The position numbers and the translations under genes were made by a program. The notes beneath the pieces are model-generated. The model had not been told where the DNA came from, ran no database searches, and worked only from the letters and a program-made list of their open reading frames with translations. A stretch of 64,000 nt of DNA, taken from positions 248,001 to 312,000 of the forward strand of contig NZ_JACHCG010000001.1 in NCBI RefSeq assembly GCF_014200595.1. The letters run 5' to 3'. Of the stretch, positions 9,010-14,879 are shown one piece after another (within the stretch, counting starts at the first letter, position 1; each line of letters starts with the position of its first letter). The DNA comes from Pedobacter cryoconitis (GTDB lineage Bacteria; Bacteroidota; Bacteroidia; Sphingobacteriales; Sphingobacteriaceae).

Positions 9010-9122
9010 AGTAAATTGTTTTTATAGGTTAGATGGTATTCAATAGATGTATGTAAAGTAGAAATAATTAATCATTTAATTTAAATTAGGATAGTTTTAG
9101 TGAAAGATTTAACACAAAAAAA

Positions 9123-9153
9123 ACGCCCTGTTATTTTTTAGATAACAGGGCGT
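9123..9153 (-). terminator. terminator of the aromatic amino acid operon
   Basis: ACGCCCTGTTAT (9123-9134) pairs with ATAACAGGGCGT (9142-9153); on the minus strand a run of T follows. It lies 22 bp beyond the aroC stop. Confidence 0.85.
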
Positions 9154-9174
9154 CCGGATAAACAGGTTTTTAAC

Positions 9175-10266
9175 TTATAACCTGCTCGATTTATTTCTTA
9201 ATAACTGGTCGGCAAGCACTAAAGCTGCCATCGCCTCAACGATTACAACTGCTCTTGGCACAACACAAGGATCGTGTCTGCCTTTTCCTTTAATCTCTGC
9301 GGCCTCACCAGCAGCATTTACCGTTTGCTGGTTATGCATAATGGTTGCTACAGGTTTAAAAGCTACTGTAAAGTTGATTTCCATTCCGTTAGAAATTCCT
9401 CCTTGTATACCACCAGAGAAATTAGTTAATGTTTTTGGTGCATGTGCCCCGTCAGTCAGGAAGATATCATTGTGTGCTGATCCCCTCATCTCACTTCCTG
9501 AAAATCCTGAGCCATATTCAAAACCATGTACCGCATTGATGCTTAACATTGCTTTACCCAAATCGGCATGCAGCTTATCAAAAACCGGCTCTCCTAATCC
9601 CGGAGGGCAATTGTGAATGATACAGCTGATTTTTCCGCCAACCGTGTCACCATCTTTTCTGACGCTGTCAATAAACTCAATCATCTCATTGGCAGTTGCC
9701 GGATCTGCGCAGCGCACGATATTTTCTTCGCGCTGTGCCAGTAATTCAGCAATCGGCAATGCTGCTAAATTAGGTGCATTGATAGTACCTACAGCAGAGA
9801 CATGCGCAAAAATACCAATTCCGTAATGTTGAAGTAATAGCTTGGCAATAGCACCTGCTGCTACACGGGCAGCTGTTTCCCTTGCAGAAGAACGTCCACC
9901 TCCGCGGTGATCACGGATACCATATTTGGCGTCATAAGTATAATCAGCATGCGAAGGACGATAAACAGTCTTATTGTGCTCATAGTCTTTGGAACGGTGG
10001 TCCTCATTCGGAATTAAAAGCGCAATGGGCGTACCGGTACTTTGTCCTTCGAAAATACCCGATAAAATTTTTACCGTATCGCTCTCTTTACGCTGTGTAG
10101 TTATCTTTGATTGTCCTGGACGGCGTTTATCCAATTCTGACTGAATAAATTCCAGATCAATAGGCAATCCAGCAGGACAGCCATCTACGATAACGCCAAT
10201 AGCCTCGCCATGTGATTCTCCAAAAGTTGAAATCCTGAATAAGTGTCCGAAGGTATTACCTGCCAT
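9175..10266 (-). CDS. aroC: chorismate synthase
   Basis: A 363-residue chorismate synthase, the usual length. It converts EPSP to chorismate using reduced FMN. Signatures seen are [18 protein letters not shown] at the N-terminus, [42 protein letters not shown] and [23 protein letters not shown]. It is last in the minus-strand operon pheA - DAHP synthase/CM - aroA - aroC, with 28 bp between it and aroA and a strong terminator behind it. Control is therefore probably shared with the pheA attenuator at 13715-13844. Confidence 0.96.
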
Positions 10267-10294: not shown

Positions 10295-11557
10295 TCAGGC
10301 TAATTCCTGAACTGTGAAACCTGCTTTTTCCAAATGTTTCCAGAAATCAGGATAGGACTTCTCTACCACCTGAAAATCTTCAATCTCTACTTCTTTAATC
10401 AGCAAACTTAACGGCGCAAATGCCATCGCCATCCGGTGATCATCATAAGTTGCGAAAGTTACCTTTTCCGGGAAGTTTAAGCCTTCACAGTTTAAGGTAT
10501 ACACCTCATTATCTTCATTTAAAGTAACGCCAATTTTGGCCAGTTCATTCTGTAAAGCCAGAATCCTGTTCGTTTCTTTAATTTTAAGCGTTTCCAGGCC
10601 AGTAAAAGCAAGGTTTAATCCCTTAGCAGCAGCACAAACAATGATAGTCTGCGCCAGATCGGGACAGTCTTTTAAGTTTAGGACCGCTGTAGTTTGTGGT
10701 TCGTTTTGAGTAGCCTTTAAAGCTATACCATCTGCCGTTCTTTGTGTATTTACACCAAGGCCAACCATGATTTCCTGGATTTTACTGTCTCCCTGCAAGC
10801 TTTCCTCTTTCAGGTTAGGCAGTTCAATAGCTGCCTGATCTGCCAGTGCAGCAATGCTGTACCAGTAAGATGCAGCGCTCCAGTCAGGTTCTACAGTTAG
10901 TGTTGCCGCCTGGTATTGTTGCGGGCCTATATAAATATTATCGCCCTTCCAGCTATGTGAAACCCCTGCTGAAGCTAATAAAGCCAGCGTCATTTCAACA
11001 TAAGGTCTGGAAGTTAATCCACCCTCGATATTCAGCGAAAGGCCAGCAAGTAATTTTGGTGCAATAATCAGCAAGGCTGATAAATACTGACTGCTTACAT
11101 TTCCTTTGATAGAAACCTCGGCACGCACATTATTTAAACCTCCGTTGATTGACAAAGGGGGGAAGCCCTCATTTTTAGCATAAGTGATATCCGCACCCAG
11201 ACTTTTTAAAGCGTCTACTAAGATACCAATCGGGCGTTCCTGCATTCTGGCAGAGCCTGTAAGCAAAAATTGCTGCGGAATTGTAGACAAATAAGCCGTT
11301 AAAAAGCGCATTGCAGTGCCGGCGTGGCCAACATCTACCGTTCTTCTTCCTTCAGGTTCAGTTGTATTCAGCTCCGTCAAAATTCTGTTCAAAGTCACCG
11401 TATCAGCAGCATCAGAAAGGTTATTCACCTTAACTAAGCCTTTACTGATTGCAGCAATGATTAATGCCCTGTTGCTCTCACTTTTTGAACCCGTGAGGTT
11501 TATCGTAGCCTGGATATCTTTTTGTCCCTTAAAGGAAACAAGTGCATTCTTCTTCAT
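10295..11557 (-). CDS. aroA: 3-phosphoshikimate 1-carboxyvinyltransferase (EPSP synthase)
   Basis: A 420-residue EPSP synthase, which joins shikimate 3-phosphate and phosphoenolpyruvate. The shikimate-phosphate loop TGSKSESNRALI (about 22-33), the PEP-binding DVGHAGTAMRFL (about 74-85) and the C-terminal TYDDHRMAMAFAPLSL are all present. The first motif has GSKSESNR where many enzymes have GSKSxSNR, so it is normal. The gene sits 90 bp after the DAHP synthase/CM gene and 28 bp before aroC on the minus strand, as part of the same pathway operon. Confidence 0.95.
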   Translation of the reverse strand: MKKNALVSFKGQKDIQATINLTGSKSESNRALIIAAISKGLVKVNNLSDAADTVTLNRILTELNTTEPEGRRTVDVGHAGTAMRFLTAYLSTIPQQFLLTGSARMQERPIGILVDALKSLGADITYAKNEGFPPLSINGGLNNVRAEVSIKGNVSSQYLSALLIIAPKLLAGLSLNIEGGLTSRPYVEMTLALLASAGVSHSWKGDNIYIGPQQYQAATLTVEPDWSAASYWYSIAALADQAAIELPNLKEESLQGDSKIQEIMVGLGVNTQRTADGIALKATQNEPQTTAVLNLKDCPDLAQTIIVCAAAKGLNLAFTGLETLKIKETNRILALQNELAKIGVTLNEDNEVYTLNCEGLNFPEKVTFATYDDHRMAMAFAPLSLLIKEVEIEDFQVVEKSYPDFWKHLEKAGFTVQELA

Positions 11558-11647: not shown

Positions 11648-12787
11648 TTAATGTTTTGCAGCAGCGGCAGTAGCTTCAACGATTTCTTCTTCAGTTTTGC
11701 CTTCGTTCATGATTGCAGTTTGTTTTCTGATAGACTCACCGTGAACTAATTCTAAGAATTTCTCTGTAAAACCAAGGTCTAATTTAAGTGCTTTAGCAAA
11801 AGCAGTTCCTTTTTTAAGGATTTCATCCCAACGGTTAACTTGTAAGATGGTTACTTTGCTATCTCTTTTATACTGACCGATTTTTTCAACGATAGTCATA
11901 CGCTCACTTAATTTCTGAAGTAAAACATCATCGATTTTATCGATTTGCTTACGTAATTCAGCTAATTTATCAGCAAAAGCTTCGTTGTTGGATTCTGGAT
12001 CACGTAAACTTAATTTAGCGACCAGTTCTTCCAAAGCAGCAGGCGTAACTTGTTGTTTTGCATCAGTCCATGCTACAGAAGGGTCAATATGTGACTCAAT
12101 CATTAATCCTTGCATATCGAGATCTAATGCTTTTTGAGAGATGTAAGGGATCAGTTCGCGATTTCCACAGATATGAGAAGGGTCATTGATAATTGGCAAT
12201 TCAGGGCAAAGCGTTTTCAACTGAATCGCAAGTTCCCACATTGGTTCGTTACGGAAAGAGCTTTTCTCGTAAGAAGAGAAACCACGGTGAATTGCACCTA
12301 ATTTAGTGATACCTGCATTGTTGATACGCTCTAAAGCACCAATCCATAAAGAGATATCAGGATTTACAGGGTTTTTAATTAATACAGGGATGTCAACACC
12401 TTTTAAAGCATCGGCAATTTCCTGTACTGTGAAAGGGTTAGCCGTTGATCTTGCGCCGATCCATAAGATATCTACGCCAGCTGCCAATGCTTCTTCCACA
12501 TGTTTAGCGTTTGCTACTTCTACAGCTGTAGGTAATCCGGTTTCAGCTTTAGCTTTTTTCAACCATTCTAAACCGATACTTCCAATTCCTTCGAATTCTC
12601 CCGGACGGGTACGTGGTTTCCAGATACCAGCTCTTAATACAGACACTTTACCAGTTGCCGCTAATAAATGTGCAGTAGATAACAATTGATCTTCAGTTTC
12701 TGCACTACATGGTCCAGAGATGATAAGCGGCTCGTTTTTGACGTTGATCCAGCTCGATAATGGCTGAATGTTTAAGTTTAATTTCAT
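11648..12787 (-). CDS. bifunctional DAHP synthase / type II chorismate mutase
   Basis: The 379-residue product combines the first committed step of aromatic synthesis (DAHP synthase) with chorismate mutase. Residues about 1-265 are a KDPG-aldolase-like DAHP synthase: SGPCSAETEDQ, RAGIWKPRTRPGEFEG, WIGARSTANPF and INDPSHICGNRE. Residues about 280-365 are an all-helical AroQ-type chorismate mutase (ELRKQIDKIDDVLLQKLSERM, with the basic VEKIGQYKRDS segment). This order is the usual one in Bacteroidota. It follows pheA by 58 bp. The mutase supplies prephenate for PheA directly upstream, so this pair forms a phenylalanine branch. Confidence 0.94.
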   Translation of the reverse strand: MKLNLNIQPLSSWINVKNEPLIISGPCSAETEDQLLSTAHLLAATGKVSVLRAGIWKPRTRPGEFEGIGSIGLEWLKKAKAETGLPTAVEVANAKHVEEALAAGVDILWIGARSTANPFTVQEIADALKGVDIPVLIKNPVNPDISLWIGALERINNAGITKLGAIHRGFSSYEKSSFRNEPMWELAIQLKTLCPELPIINDPSHICGNRELIPYISQKALDLDMQGLMIESHIDPSVAWTDAKQQVTPAALEELVAKLSLRDPESNNEAFADKLAELRKQIDKIDDVLLQKLSERMTIVEKIGQYKRDSKVTILQVNRWDEILKKGTAFAKALKLDLGFTEKFLELVHGESIRKQTAIMNEGKTEEEIVEATAAAAKH

Positions 12788-12845: not shown

Positions 12846-13679
12846 TTAAACGATATCGTTCTTTAGATATTCGCCCATTATATTAAAGTTTACTGTGTAT
12901 TTCAGTGCTTTACGGATAGCGACGTCATATTTTTCGCTGTCTGTCCATTCCATATCGACATAGAAATAATACTCACTCCTTTTACCTAAAACAGGCATAG
13001 ACTGGATCTTGCTTAAATTCACACTTTGTTCTGCGAATATATTCAGCACTTTGGAAAGTGCCCCTACATGGTTACCAACCTGGAAACAGATGGAGGATTT
13101 ATTAATTTCAGTCAAATCTTCAGTTTTATCGTTTTGAAGGATCAGGAAACGGGTGTAATTCTTTTTATTCGATTCAATTCTTCTTTCTATAATATTCAGG
13201 CCATAAAGTTCGGCAGCCAGTGTATTTGCAATCGCAACAGTATCAGTTAATTGCTCATCTCTGATTTTTTTGGCGCAAGCAGCTGTATCTACACTTTCCA
13301 CTACTTTAAGGTGTGGAAATTCGTCAAAGAAATCAATGCACTGACGAATAGCAATAGGGTGAGAGGTTACGTATTTTACGTCTTCCAATTTCACTCCCGG
13401 CAGGGCCATTAAGTGCAGTTGTATCGGAAGGTAAACCTCTCCGGTCACTGCAAAATTATATTCTCTGATCAGCGTGTAGTTTGGTAAAAGGCTACCGGCG
13501 ATAGAGTTTTCAATAGCCATCACTACATAGTCAACTTCCCGTGCTTCAAGCACTTCGCATGTTTGTTTAAAGGAATTGCATTCGACAGTTTTAATGTCAT
13601 TACCAAAGAATTTGAAAGCAGCTTCTTCATGAAAGGAGGCTTTAATACCTTGTATTGCTACTCTTGTTACTTTTTTCAT
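12846..13679 (-). CDS. pheA: prephenate dehydratase
   Basis: A 277-residue monofunctional prephenate dehydratase giving phenylpyruvate. The PDT domain (about 1-180) carries AIQGIKASFHEEAA, VVMAIENSIAGSLLPNY, VTSHPIAIRQC and the catalytic-region pattern SNKKNYTRFLIL, with the Thr-Arg-Phe triad. A regulatory ACT domain follows (about 195-277: CFQVGNHVGALSKVLNIFAEQSVNLSKIQSMP), implying allosteric control by phenylalanine. It is the first structural gene of the operon and is preceded by a complete attenuation leader, so it is probably controlled both at transcription termination and by feedback. Confidence 0.95.
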   Translation of the reverse strand: MKKVTRVAIQGIKASFHEEAAFKFFGNDIKTVECNSFKQTCEVLEAREVDYVVMAIENSIAGSLLPNYTLIREYNFAVTGEVYLPIQLHLMALPGVKLEDVKYVTSHPIAIRQCIDFFDEFPHLKVVESVDTAACAKKIRDEQLTDTVAIANTLAAELYGLNIIERRIESNKKNYTRFLILQNDKTEDLTEINKSSICFQVGNHVGALSKVLNIFAEQSVNLSKIQSMPVLGKRSEYYFYVDMEWTDSEKYDVAIRKALKYTVNFNIMGEYLKNDIV

Positions 13680-13714
13680 TTTTATAATCTCCTGCGTTAA
13701 TTTTTGCTTTAAAC

Positions 13715-13746
13715 AAAAAAAGTCCCGGCAGGATGCCGGGACTTTT
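13715..13746 (-). terminator. attenuator terminator of the pheA operon
   Basis: On the minus strand, GTCCCGGCA (13742-13734) and TGCCGGGAC (13730-13722) form a 9-bp GC-rich stem with a 3-nt loop, followed by seven T (13721-13715). It lies 35 bp before the pheA ATG and after the leader peptide. Its 5' arm can alternatively pair with 13792-13784, which overlaps the end of the leader ORF. Confidence 0.88.
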
Positions 13747-13781
13747 CATATACAATTTATGTTGATTTTTTTGATTGCATA

Positions 13782-13844
13782 TCAGTCCCGGCTCTTACTA
13801 AAATAGTAGAAGTAGCTAAACCAATATGTAGTGATGTTTCTCAT
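13782..13844 (-). CDS. aromatic-rich leader peptide of the pheA operon
   Basis: A 20-codon ORF on the minus strand (ATG at 13844, TGA at 13784-13782). Eight of nine consecutive residues from Tyr7 to Phe15 are aromatic: Tyr7, Trp8, Phe9, Tyr11, Phe12, Tyr13, Tyr14, Phe15. Its last codons and stop lie inside GCCGGGACT (13792-13784), which is complementary to the 5' arm of the terminator. The logic matches ribosome-mediated attenuation. A ribosome that stalls on scarce Phe/Tyr codons leaves the segment free to form the antiterminator; one that reaches the stop codon covers it, so the terminator forms. The mechanism is inferred; the sequence elements are directly visible. Confidence 0.85.
   Translation of the reverse strand: MRNITTYWFSYFYYFSKSRD
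13784..13792 (-). promoter_or_regulatory. antiterminator segment
   Basis: RNA GCCGGGACU (13792-13784) is perfectly complementary over 9 nt to AGUCCCGGC at 13743-13735, the 5' arm of the attenuator terminator, so the two structures exclude each other. Confidence 0.8.
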
Positions 13845-13900
13845 TTTTTTCTTTGGTGGACTCTGAAAAAAGAATCCTTTATTTTTAATCTTTGTTTTTT

Positions 13901-13931
13901 CAAATGTAGCAACAAAATTTAATTTGTCAAA
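13901..13931 (-). promoter_or_regulatory. promoter of the pheA operon
   Basis: On the minus strand the -7 box TACATTTG (13908-13901) matches TAnnTTTG, and TTTG (13931-13928) lies 19 nt upstream as a -33 box, the spacing known for Bacteroidota sigma-ABfr promoters. The leader peptide ATG is about 57 nt downstream. Confidence 0.75.
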
Positions 13932-13961
13932 TTTAATTTAAAAAAAATTATTAATGGTGTC

Positions 13962-14879
13962 CTAATGCTGTTGAATCGGCAATTTCTCCCGCTGCTCAGC
14001 CTCTTTTAACTCTTGTTGCATCACTTTTGCGATCTGCGTACTGCCATCATGGCTCCATCCCGGAGGATTAAATACGTAACCAAGTTTGTTTTTAAAGCCC
14101 GGTGCTCGTTTCACATCTGCTGTCATGGCTTTAAATTCATGAAAGACAATATTCACAGGCCCGGTATCTTCAGGCTGATGTGTTAAACCATAAACAACCT
14201 TATCTTCAGGAAGTTCTTCCTGAAAAGTTCCGAACATCCTGTCCCAGATAATCAGCACCATACCCATGTTTTTATCCAGATAGCGGATATTACTGGCATG
14301 ATGTACCCTGTGGTGAGACGGGGTAACCAGGAAGTATTCCAGGATCGGATGTAATTTTCCGACCGCCTGTGTATGCACCATATTTCCATACAATTGCGTA
14401 ACCAGGTAGGCAAAAAGGATGTCTATCGCCGAGAAACCCATAAATGCCAGCGGCAAATAAAAGAATACCCGGTATAGCGGCTCAAAAACTGTAGACCGGA
14501 ATCCTGTGGTCAGGTTAAACAGGGGTGAGGAATGATGTGTCACATGCATCGCCCAGAAAAACCTGATATAATGACCTGAAGTATGTAATACCCAATACAA
14601 CAGGTCTTGTGCAAGTACCAGCACTACCCAGTAAACGAAAATATTTTTGATTTCGAACAGGCGGAACTGATAACAGTAATTCAGTAAAAAGAACGTAGCA
14701 GTTTTAGTCGATATATTGATTAAAAAGGCCAGGCCCATCAGGTATACGTTTGTCCACGTATCTCTTTTAGCATATAACTTCCTGTCGTGCATGTAACTGA
14801 TGTACATTTCCACAATGGAAATAACAATCAGCAGGCCGAACAAGAGGGAGAGCGTTATATTTCTAGGATCATTTAGCAT
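13962..14879 (-). CDS. sterol desaturase / fatty acid hydroxylase family membrane protein
   Basis: A 305-residue membrane protein with several hydrophobic helices (about 8-27, 48-68, 80-100, 135-165) and the histidine clusters of the di-iron fatty acid hydroxylase superfamily: HTSGH (about 118-122), HVTHH (about 133-137) and HHRVHH (about 188-193). These would bind the two irons for O2-dependent C-H hydroxylation of a lipid. The substrate is unknown. Its start overlaps the aroB end by 11 bp, so the two are cotranscribed although their functions seem unrelated. The pheA promoter lies just downstream of its stop. Confidence 0.85.
   Translation of the reverse strand: MLNDPRNITLSLLFGLLIVISIVEMYISYMHDRKLYAKRDTWTNVYLMGLAFLINISTKTATFFLLNYCYQFRLFEIKNIFVYWVVLVLAQDLLYWVLHTSGHYIRFFWAMHVTHHSSPLFNLTTGFRSTVFEPLYRVFFYLPLAFMGFSAIDILFAYLVTQLYGNMVHTQAVGKLHPILEYFLVTPSHHRVHHASNIRYLDKNMGMVLIIWDRMFGTFQEELPEDKVVYGLTHQPEDTGPVNIVFHEFKAMTADVKRAPGFKNKLGYVFNPPGWSHDGSTQIAKVMQQELKEAEQREKLPIQQH

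Follow-up and report, generated by a model that had tools for sequence, protein, structure and literature searches.

The window analysed here, a stretch of 64,000 nucleotides of the Pedobacter cryoconitis genome, carries on its minus strand pheA, a DAHP synthase/chorismate mutase fusion gene (DAHPS/CM), aroA and aroC, preceded by a leader region with a promoter, a short ORF and a terminator. Read in the direction of transcription, the features are:

13931-13928 and 13908-13901, minus strand: promoter, TTTG, a 19-base spacer and TACATTTG, from sequence
13858..13877, minus strand: 5' UTR hairpin GGATTCT/AGAGTCC, from fold prediction
13782..13844, minus strand: leader ORF MRNITTYWFSYFYYFSKSRD, 20 codons from ATG at 13844 to TGA at 13782, conserved in relatives
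13800..13826, minus strand: control codons 7-15, Tyr Trp Phe Ser Tyr Phe Tyr Tyr Phe
13818..13828, minus strand: region 1 (CATATTGGTTT), with its partner at 13788-13778 in the 1:2 protector helix, from the MFE fold
13778..13792, minus strand: region 2, GCCGGGACT (13792-13784) followed by GATATG (13783-13778)
13775..13782, minus strand: antiterminator extension ATATGCAA, with TTGTATAT at 13755-13748 as possible partner, from the window fold
13735..13743, minus strand: region 3, AGTCCCGGC, the 3' arm of the antiterminator and 5' arm of the terminator
13715..13747, minus strand: intrinsic terminator (3:4 hairpin and seven T), by sequence
12846..13679, minus strand: pheA, prephenate dehydratase, 277 aa (NCBIfam PRK11898 at 192 bits, cut-off 219; PF00800 over cut-off)
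11648..12787, minus strand: DAHP synthase/chorismate mutase fusion, 379 aa (best NCBIfam matches for both domains, below cut-offs)
10295..11557, minus strand: aroA, EPSP synthase (TIGR01356 over cut-off)
9175..10266, minus strand: aroC, chorismate synthase (PRK05382 and TIGR00033 over cut-off)
9121..9155, minus strand: terminator-like hairpin 3' of aroC

Profile matches to all four genes support the unit pheA-DAHPS/CM-aroA-aroC that a first-pass annotation of this DNA had placed behind the leader, and the hairpin at 9155-9121 is likely the end of the operon. The parts of the leader described in that annotation were found again on re-reading: the promoter TTTG-N19-TACATTTG at 13931-13901, which we take to be the Bacteroidota consensus promoter; the 20-codon ORF at 13844-13782 with eight aromatic codons among the nine at positions 7-15; the perfect 9-bp complementarity between GCCGGGACT (13792-13784) and AGTCCCGGC (13743-13735), an antiterminator option that overlaps the leader stop codon (13784-13782); and the terminator with seven T at 13747-13715. 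The 1:2 helix, which joins the first control codons to the end of the leader, the antiterminator extension and the 5' UTR hairpin are additions to that description. All three classical helices (1:2, 2:3 and 3:4) can be formed by the leader RNA. The window's ORFs of at least 250 aa, 14055 residues in all, contain no nine-residue segment with more than five aromatics. A Shine-Dalgarno site is not visible by eye before the leader, and the start codon lies inside an A-rich stretch.

We asked how often such an arrangement arises by chance. A scripted caller with three requirements (a leader ORF rich in aromatic codons, a terminator, and pairing of regions 2 and 3) fired on 0 of 1490 dinucleotide-shuffled upstream sequences and 0 of 150 reverse strands. 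Among 54 upstream regions in the window it fired once, at the pheA leader, and it fired on 121 of a set of 150 loci, six of which are repeats of the same genome. The folding z-score of the leader region is -5.0, and none of 200 shuffles was as stable. A hairpin and T run between two genes could also simply end the transcript of the gene upstream, with an ORF nearby by chance. The caller results in shuffles and in the window, the promoter before the leader in 30 of 30 loci, and the fit of region 2 to its own region 3 between families (see below) argue against this explanation, to which we give next to no credence.

Conservation and co-evolution of the leader region

The gene pheA was found in 35 of 36 same-genus genomes searched. 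At each of the 30 same-genus loci fetched, our own genome counted, the element lies upstream of pheA and TTG-N19/20-TA[CT]ATTTG precedes the leader. The 5' UTR hairpin is present in part of the genus; at the equivalent place, just before the leader start, hairpins with differing arms were seen by eye in six loci (L002-L007). The best 80 of 301 named loci come from Pedobacter, Nubsella, Mucilaginibacter, Daejeonella and others, and some are the same genomes as others in the relatives' set. The element is present in all 80 (75 by the caller and two by eye; the remaining three are cut by a contig edge but show the module); the closest named relative among them is P. cryoconitis DSM 14825, with pheA 98% identical. 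In the organism's own family (f1) the caller found it at 99 of 108 loci, and six more recognised by eye bring this to 105. The three family genomes that lack it (L095, L096 and L104) have a divergent pheA, only 41-42% identical. We built a covariance model, R1, from 73 sequences and ran it on a sample of 101 family genomes. In each of the 87 that bear pheA it finds the element directly 5' of the gene; 58 of these 87 helped build the model (G007, G108 and G129 counted among them) and 29 lie outside it. The distance from the R1 element to the matched pheA start is 7-88 bases.

The element extends beyond the family. Of 159 genomes of the class that were drawn, 42 have PF00800, 37 of them outside f1; the pheA upstream was inspected in 36 of these (G304 was left out). 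The element is present in 23 of the 36, representing 15 families (18 by the caller and five, L206, L209, L217, L222 and L228, by eye). It is absent from the other 13, and seven families show no case; in two of the 13 (L199 and L200) pheA lies, by eye, directly behind aroA. The first-pass annotation had pointed to homologous upstream regions without the ORF or the paired segments as evidence against its reading. By this measure the reading was not refuted: the family sample and most of the other pheA-bearing genomes carry both; yet the 13 genomes outside the family and the three with divergent pheA do not. In other genera the antiterminator extension ATATGCAA/TTGTATAT is poorly kept, and in some, where leaders end in YYYQ or YYFR, the stop codon precedes region 2.

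To analyze covariation we aligned 73 family sequences, 68 picked by the caller, which requires 2:3 pairing, and five uncalled ones. The terminator is the best-kept helix: it pairs in 95.4% of cells, and 30 cells are changed on both sides, a number reached by 0 of 500 shuffles. This conservation, and the end of the terminator 35 bases 5' of the pheA start codon, speak against control through translation or Rho, by ribosome access or Rho loading in place of the intrinsic terminator. A leader before hisG in the same genome, where our script found no intrinsic terminator, speaks for such control and suggests that other modes may exist in the organism; for pheA we regard it as very improbable. The antiterminator pairs in 90.7% of cells with a covariation score above 500 of 500 shuffles, although its within-family signal is modest (nine cells changed on both sides, reached by six of 500 shuffles). 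The 1:2 helix pairs in 84.3% of cells, compared with 30.5-46.7% when slid. Its covariation is weak: of 500 shuffles, 316 reach its value for pairs changed on both sides, 13 for cells and 12 for the score. The codons in this helix are constrained by coding as well.

Between families the stems are rewritten and still complementary: AGGCGGGA with TCCCGCCT, GAAGCGGG with CCCGCTTC, ACGGGAGG with CCTCCCGT, and TTGAGACTTT with AAAGTCTCGA. For 18 loci from 14 families, whose selection did not depend on pairing, region 2 matches its own region 3 better than the region 3 of another locus, with 0 of 10000 permutations reaching the observed fit; one locus scored on the wrong hairpin (L235, score 4) was kept in the test. 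The same test within the family (21 genera) is weaker, at 46 of 10000. Six duplicate loci (L106-L108 and L110-L112), two of which lack the element, were removed before the swap and composition tests. Rewriting between families is the stronger evidence of co-evolution, compared with covariation within the family. Conserved aromatic codons and covarying stems, which had been proposed as a check in relatives, are both there, with the 1:2 helix as the weak case.

The peptide core is nearly fixed within the genus, raising the question whether the peptide, and not its codons, stalls the ribosome on a small molecule, as in a TnaC-like arrest sensor. Other families keep the aromatic content but not the order (FYYFFFYFSF, YFFFFFYYFYF, YFWFYYYFF and RFYFSFYFY), and the conserved specific peptide expected of such a sensor was not found between families. 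The core also lies within the 1:2 hairpin, a possible reason for its nucleotide conservation. Nascent-peptide arrest seems to us highly unlikely.

Amino acids probably read by the leader

The 117 called leaders gave 59 distinct nine-residue segments of the aromatic run, and we analyzed their composition. Of the residues, 39.9% are Tyr, 37.1% Phe and 4.1% Trp. Phe and Tyr occur together in 59 of 59 segments, which is largely expected from about seven aromatics in each, used alike, in sequences that share ancestry; Trp occurs in 22 of 59, and in 22 of the 45 called same-genus leaders. The composition suggests that the conserved signal is Phe plus Tyr, more than general aromatic sensing. Of the mixed Phe/Tyr/Trp sensing suggested in the first-pass annotation, the Phe and Tyr part is supported, and Trp as a conserved signal was set aside on the composition of the segments.

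The same attenuator could still respond to Trp as it does to Phe and Tyr, and so monitor aromatic starvation in general. In favor of this, codon 8 of the window's leader is a Trp codon, the only one, and falls within the modelled switch zone described below; Trp at 4.1% compares with 1.0% in the window's proteins; and aroA and aroC serve Trp too. Set against these are the presence of Trp in a minority of segments and the trpE-type gene of the same genome, which has its own leader with Trp codons. We consider general aromatic sensing unlikely, and take Phe plus Tyr as the probable signal.

In 18 of the 23 genomes outside the family that have the element, a PF02153 match over cut-off lies no more than 5 kb from pheA and on its strand, four of these matches being weak (30-42 bits), suggesting that the controlled unit often makes both Phe and Tyr. 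In the Pedobacter genome the unit includes DAHP synthase/chorismate mutase, the shared step, and a tyrA-like gene lies elsewhere. Among named loci, tyrA was scored as 'none' where nothing exceeded the PF02153 cut-off. The genome has no PF02153 match over cut-off and contains two genes of the biopterin-dependent aromatic amino acid hydroxylase family (L263 and L265), one in a 596-codon frame; these two facts had led to the idea that Tyr is made from Phe. The idea was dropped because the sub-threshold match is a divergent prephenate dehydrogenase-like protein (L264, G000:C1:81407). Its best solved relative is 5t9e, 'Prephenate dehydrogenase 1' (E 1.4e-10), and it scores 86 bits with the NCBIfam prephenate dehydrogenase model, below that cut-off and below that of PF02153. 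Upstream of this gene we found no leader with at least four clustered aromatics beside a terminator.

Model of the switch

Classical attenuation is a textbook mechanism. The leader, its aromatic codons, and mutually exclusive stems that change together across relatives support the earlier proposal of ribosome-mediated attenuation. This comparison of sequences gives us high confidence that the pheA leader belongs to the trp/his/pheL type of ribosome-mediated transcription attenuators. We infer that the leader is translated, that ribosomes stall within it, that transcription and translation are coupled, and that the switch responds to amino acids. RNA polymerase would start at the promoter (13931-13901) and a ribosome would translate the leader. 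With ample charged Phe-tRNA and Tyr-tRNA, the ribosome at the stop codon would cover region 2, the 3:4 terminator would form, and transcription would end before pheA. A ribosome stalled on Phe or Tyr codons would instead cover region 1 and leave region 2 free to pair with region 3; the terminator would not form and pheA-DAHPS/CM-aroA-aroC would be transcribed.

We modelled folding on the assumption that the ribosome covers 14 bases 5' of the P codon and 10 bases 3' of the A codon. The helix energies in the window are -14.7 (1:2), -21.5 (2:3) and -20.8 (3:4) kcal/mol. With region 3 just made, the modelled probability of the 2:3 helix is 0.93-0.94 for an A site up to codon 14, 0.61 at codon 15 and at most 0.01 from codon 16. 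The aromatic run at codons 7-15 matches this modelled switch zone. For the full RNA at equilibrium, the 2:3 probability is 0.10-0.37 for stalls at codons 7-14, where the terminator dominates (3:4 probability 0.61-0.89), and at most 0.01 elsewhere. Nascent RNA without a ribosome also favors 2:3 (0.94), suggesting that an untranslated leader may read through the terminator if 1:2 has not formed beforehand. The dominance of the terminator in the full RNA and the ribosome-free 2:3 helix in the nascent RNA together indicate that the modelled switch relies on folding order.

Known systems and other leaders

The enteric pheL-pheA leader (RF01859, Phe_leader) likewise places a leader peptide, alternative stems and a terminator before a prephenate dehydratase gene, and the alternative stems of the E. 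coli leader are well known. The enteric leader is mainly Phe, as the first-pass annotation had stated: E. coli pheL has seven Phe and no Tyr, whereas Phe and Tyr are about equal in the Pedobacter leader. In E. coli the PheA protein is fused to a chorismate mutase and, over the dehydratase part, is 26% identical to the Pedobacter protein. Other leaders, such as thrL and those of ilv operons, also read two or three amino acids made by one operon; they resemble the pheA leader in this respect, although the amino acids differ.

An Rfam search of positions 13000-14500 gave 18 matches at E ≤ 5, none at gathering score and no T-box. The window element scores 20.3 bits (E 1.9) against a cut-off of 55 with RF01859. 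Bacteroid-trp (RF01692), likewise a candidate cis-regulatory RNA of Bacteroidetes and one that we take to be a trp leader, has no match in this region at E ≤ 5 and none in the Pedobacter genome at E ≤ 0.001, and exceeds its cut-off in 0 of 21 genomes. One sub-threshold match was seen in a same-genus genome (L239, G008:C1:1986274-1986400; 45.3 bits, cut-off 49). Membership in either family was rejected on score. As no Rfam family matched the element at cut-off, the R1 model is useful for annotation.

Part of the pheA leader findings may already be covered by a comparative study that Lopatovskaya and colleagues published in 2010, cited in PMC4833913. Bacteroid-trp (RF01692) is listed in PMC2864571. 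According to PMC9723704, there are strong clues that leader-peptide attenuation acts at amino-acid operons of Flavobacterium psychrophilum; the paper also names structured 5' elements, one before pheA and one before hisG, that are kept in other Flavobacteriaceae and have no Rfam hits. The description compared gives no anatomy of the F. psychrophilum pheA element, which shares the gene name and the phylum with ours and is probably the same element. Short ORFs reminiscent of attenuating leader peptides are described for Bacteroides thetaiotaomicron in PMC7366714. The kind of element is thus already known, and what is added here is its anatomy, the reading of Phe plus Tyr, its breadth and its co-evolution. 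In the one library searched, we found no literature joining transcription-translation coupling, Bacteroidota and a leader peptide.

The pheA leader is accompanied by other leaders in the genome, each described from a single look without a null of its own. R1 also matches, weakly, upstream of a bifunctional aspartate kinase/homoserine dehydrogenase gene (L249, G000:C3:204821-204962), where a Thr/Ile leader, MINNSTLTSIIITTTGKAGGRCILV, is followed by a terminator; Rfam Thr_leader scores 34.7 on it, below the cut-off of 55. Like genes in relatives (L250-L253 and L255) have leaders MNFNTSIITTIIITTGINQRG, each with a terminator. Ten regions were taken from among the secondary R1 matches listed: six lie before these aspartokinase-type genes (L249-L253 and L255), and the other four (L254 and L256-L258) look like plain terminators. 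A trpE-type gene (L260, G000:C3:625900-629000; assigned by its best NCBIfam match, below cut-off) has a leader, MINNKHTTWQWRGNSEKSFVVVSCTL, with Trp codons (TTWQW) and a terminator, and ilvE-ilvD (L262) has an Ile/Leu/Val-rich leader, MQGLFKAQINVIINLIILLILQESKAL, with a terminator. The His-rich leader of hisG (L261), MNNILNHHSHLYHRQLWR, has a hairpin, but no T run was seen, possibly reflecting another mode of control. A second chorismate-binding gene (L259) has no upstream ORF with at least two Trp. In three families two aromatic leaders lie in series 5' of pheA (L224, L228 and L235), each with a terminator; in L224 and L235 the script called both terminators, and in L228 they were recognised by eye.

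Based on these observations, we lean towards the view that an old Phe plus Tyr attenuator, present in at least 16 families of the class, has had its stems rewritten with its logic kept, has been doubled in three families, and is one of a set. If this is true, ribosome-mediated attenuation would rank among the main modes by which Bacteroidota exert amino-acid control. It would work on leaders in which no Shine-Dalgarno site is visible, and would imply that ribosome and RNA polymerase are closely coupled in the phylum. The pheA leader offers a concrete, widely conserved and easily assayed putative reporter of ribosome progress to RNA polymerase, and it suggests how one switch can control an operon whose products supply Phe as well as Tyr.
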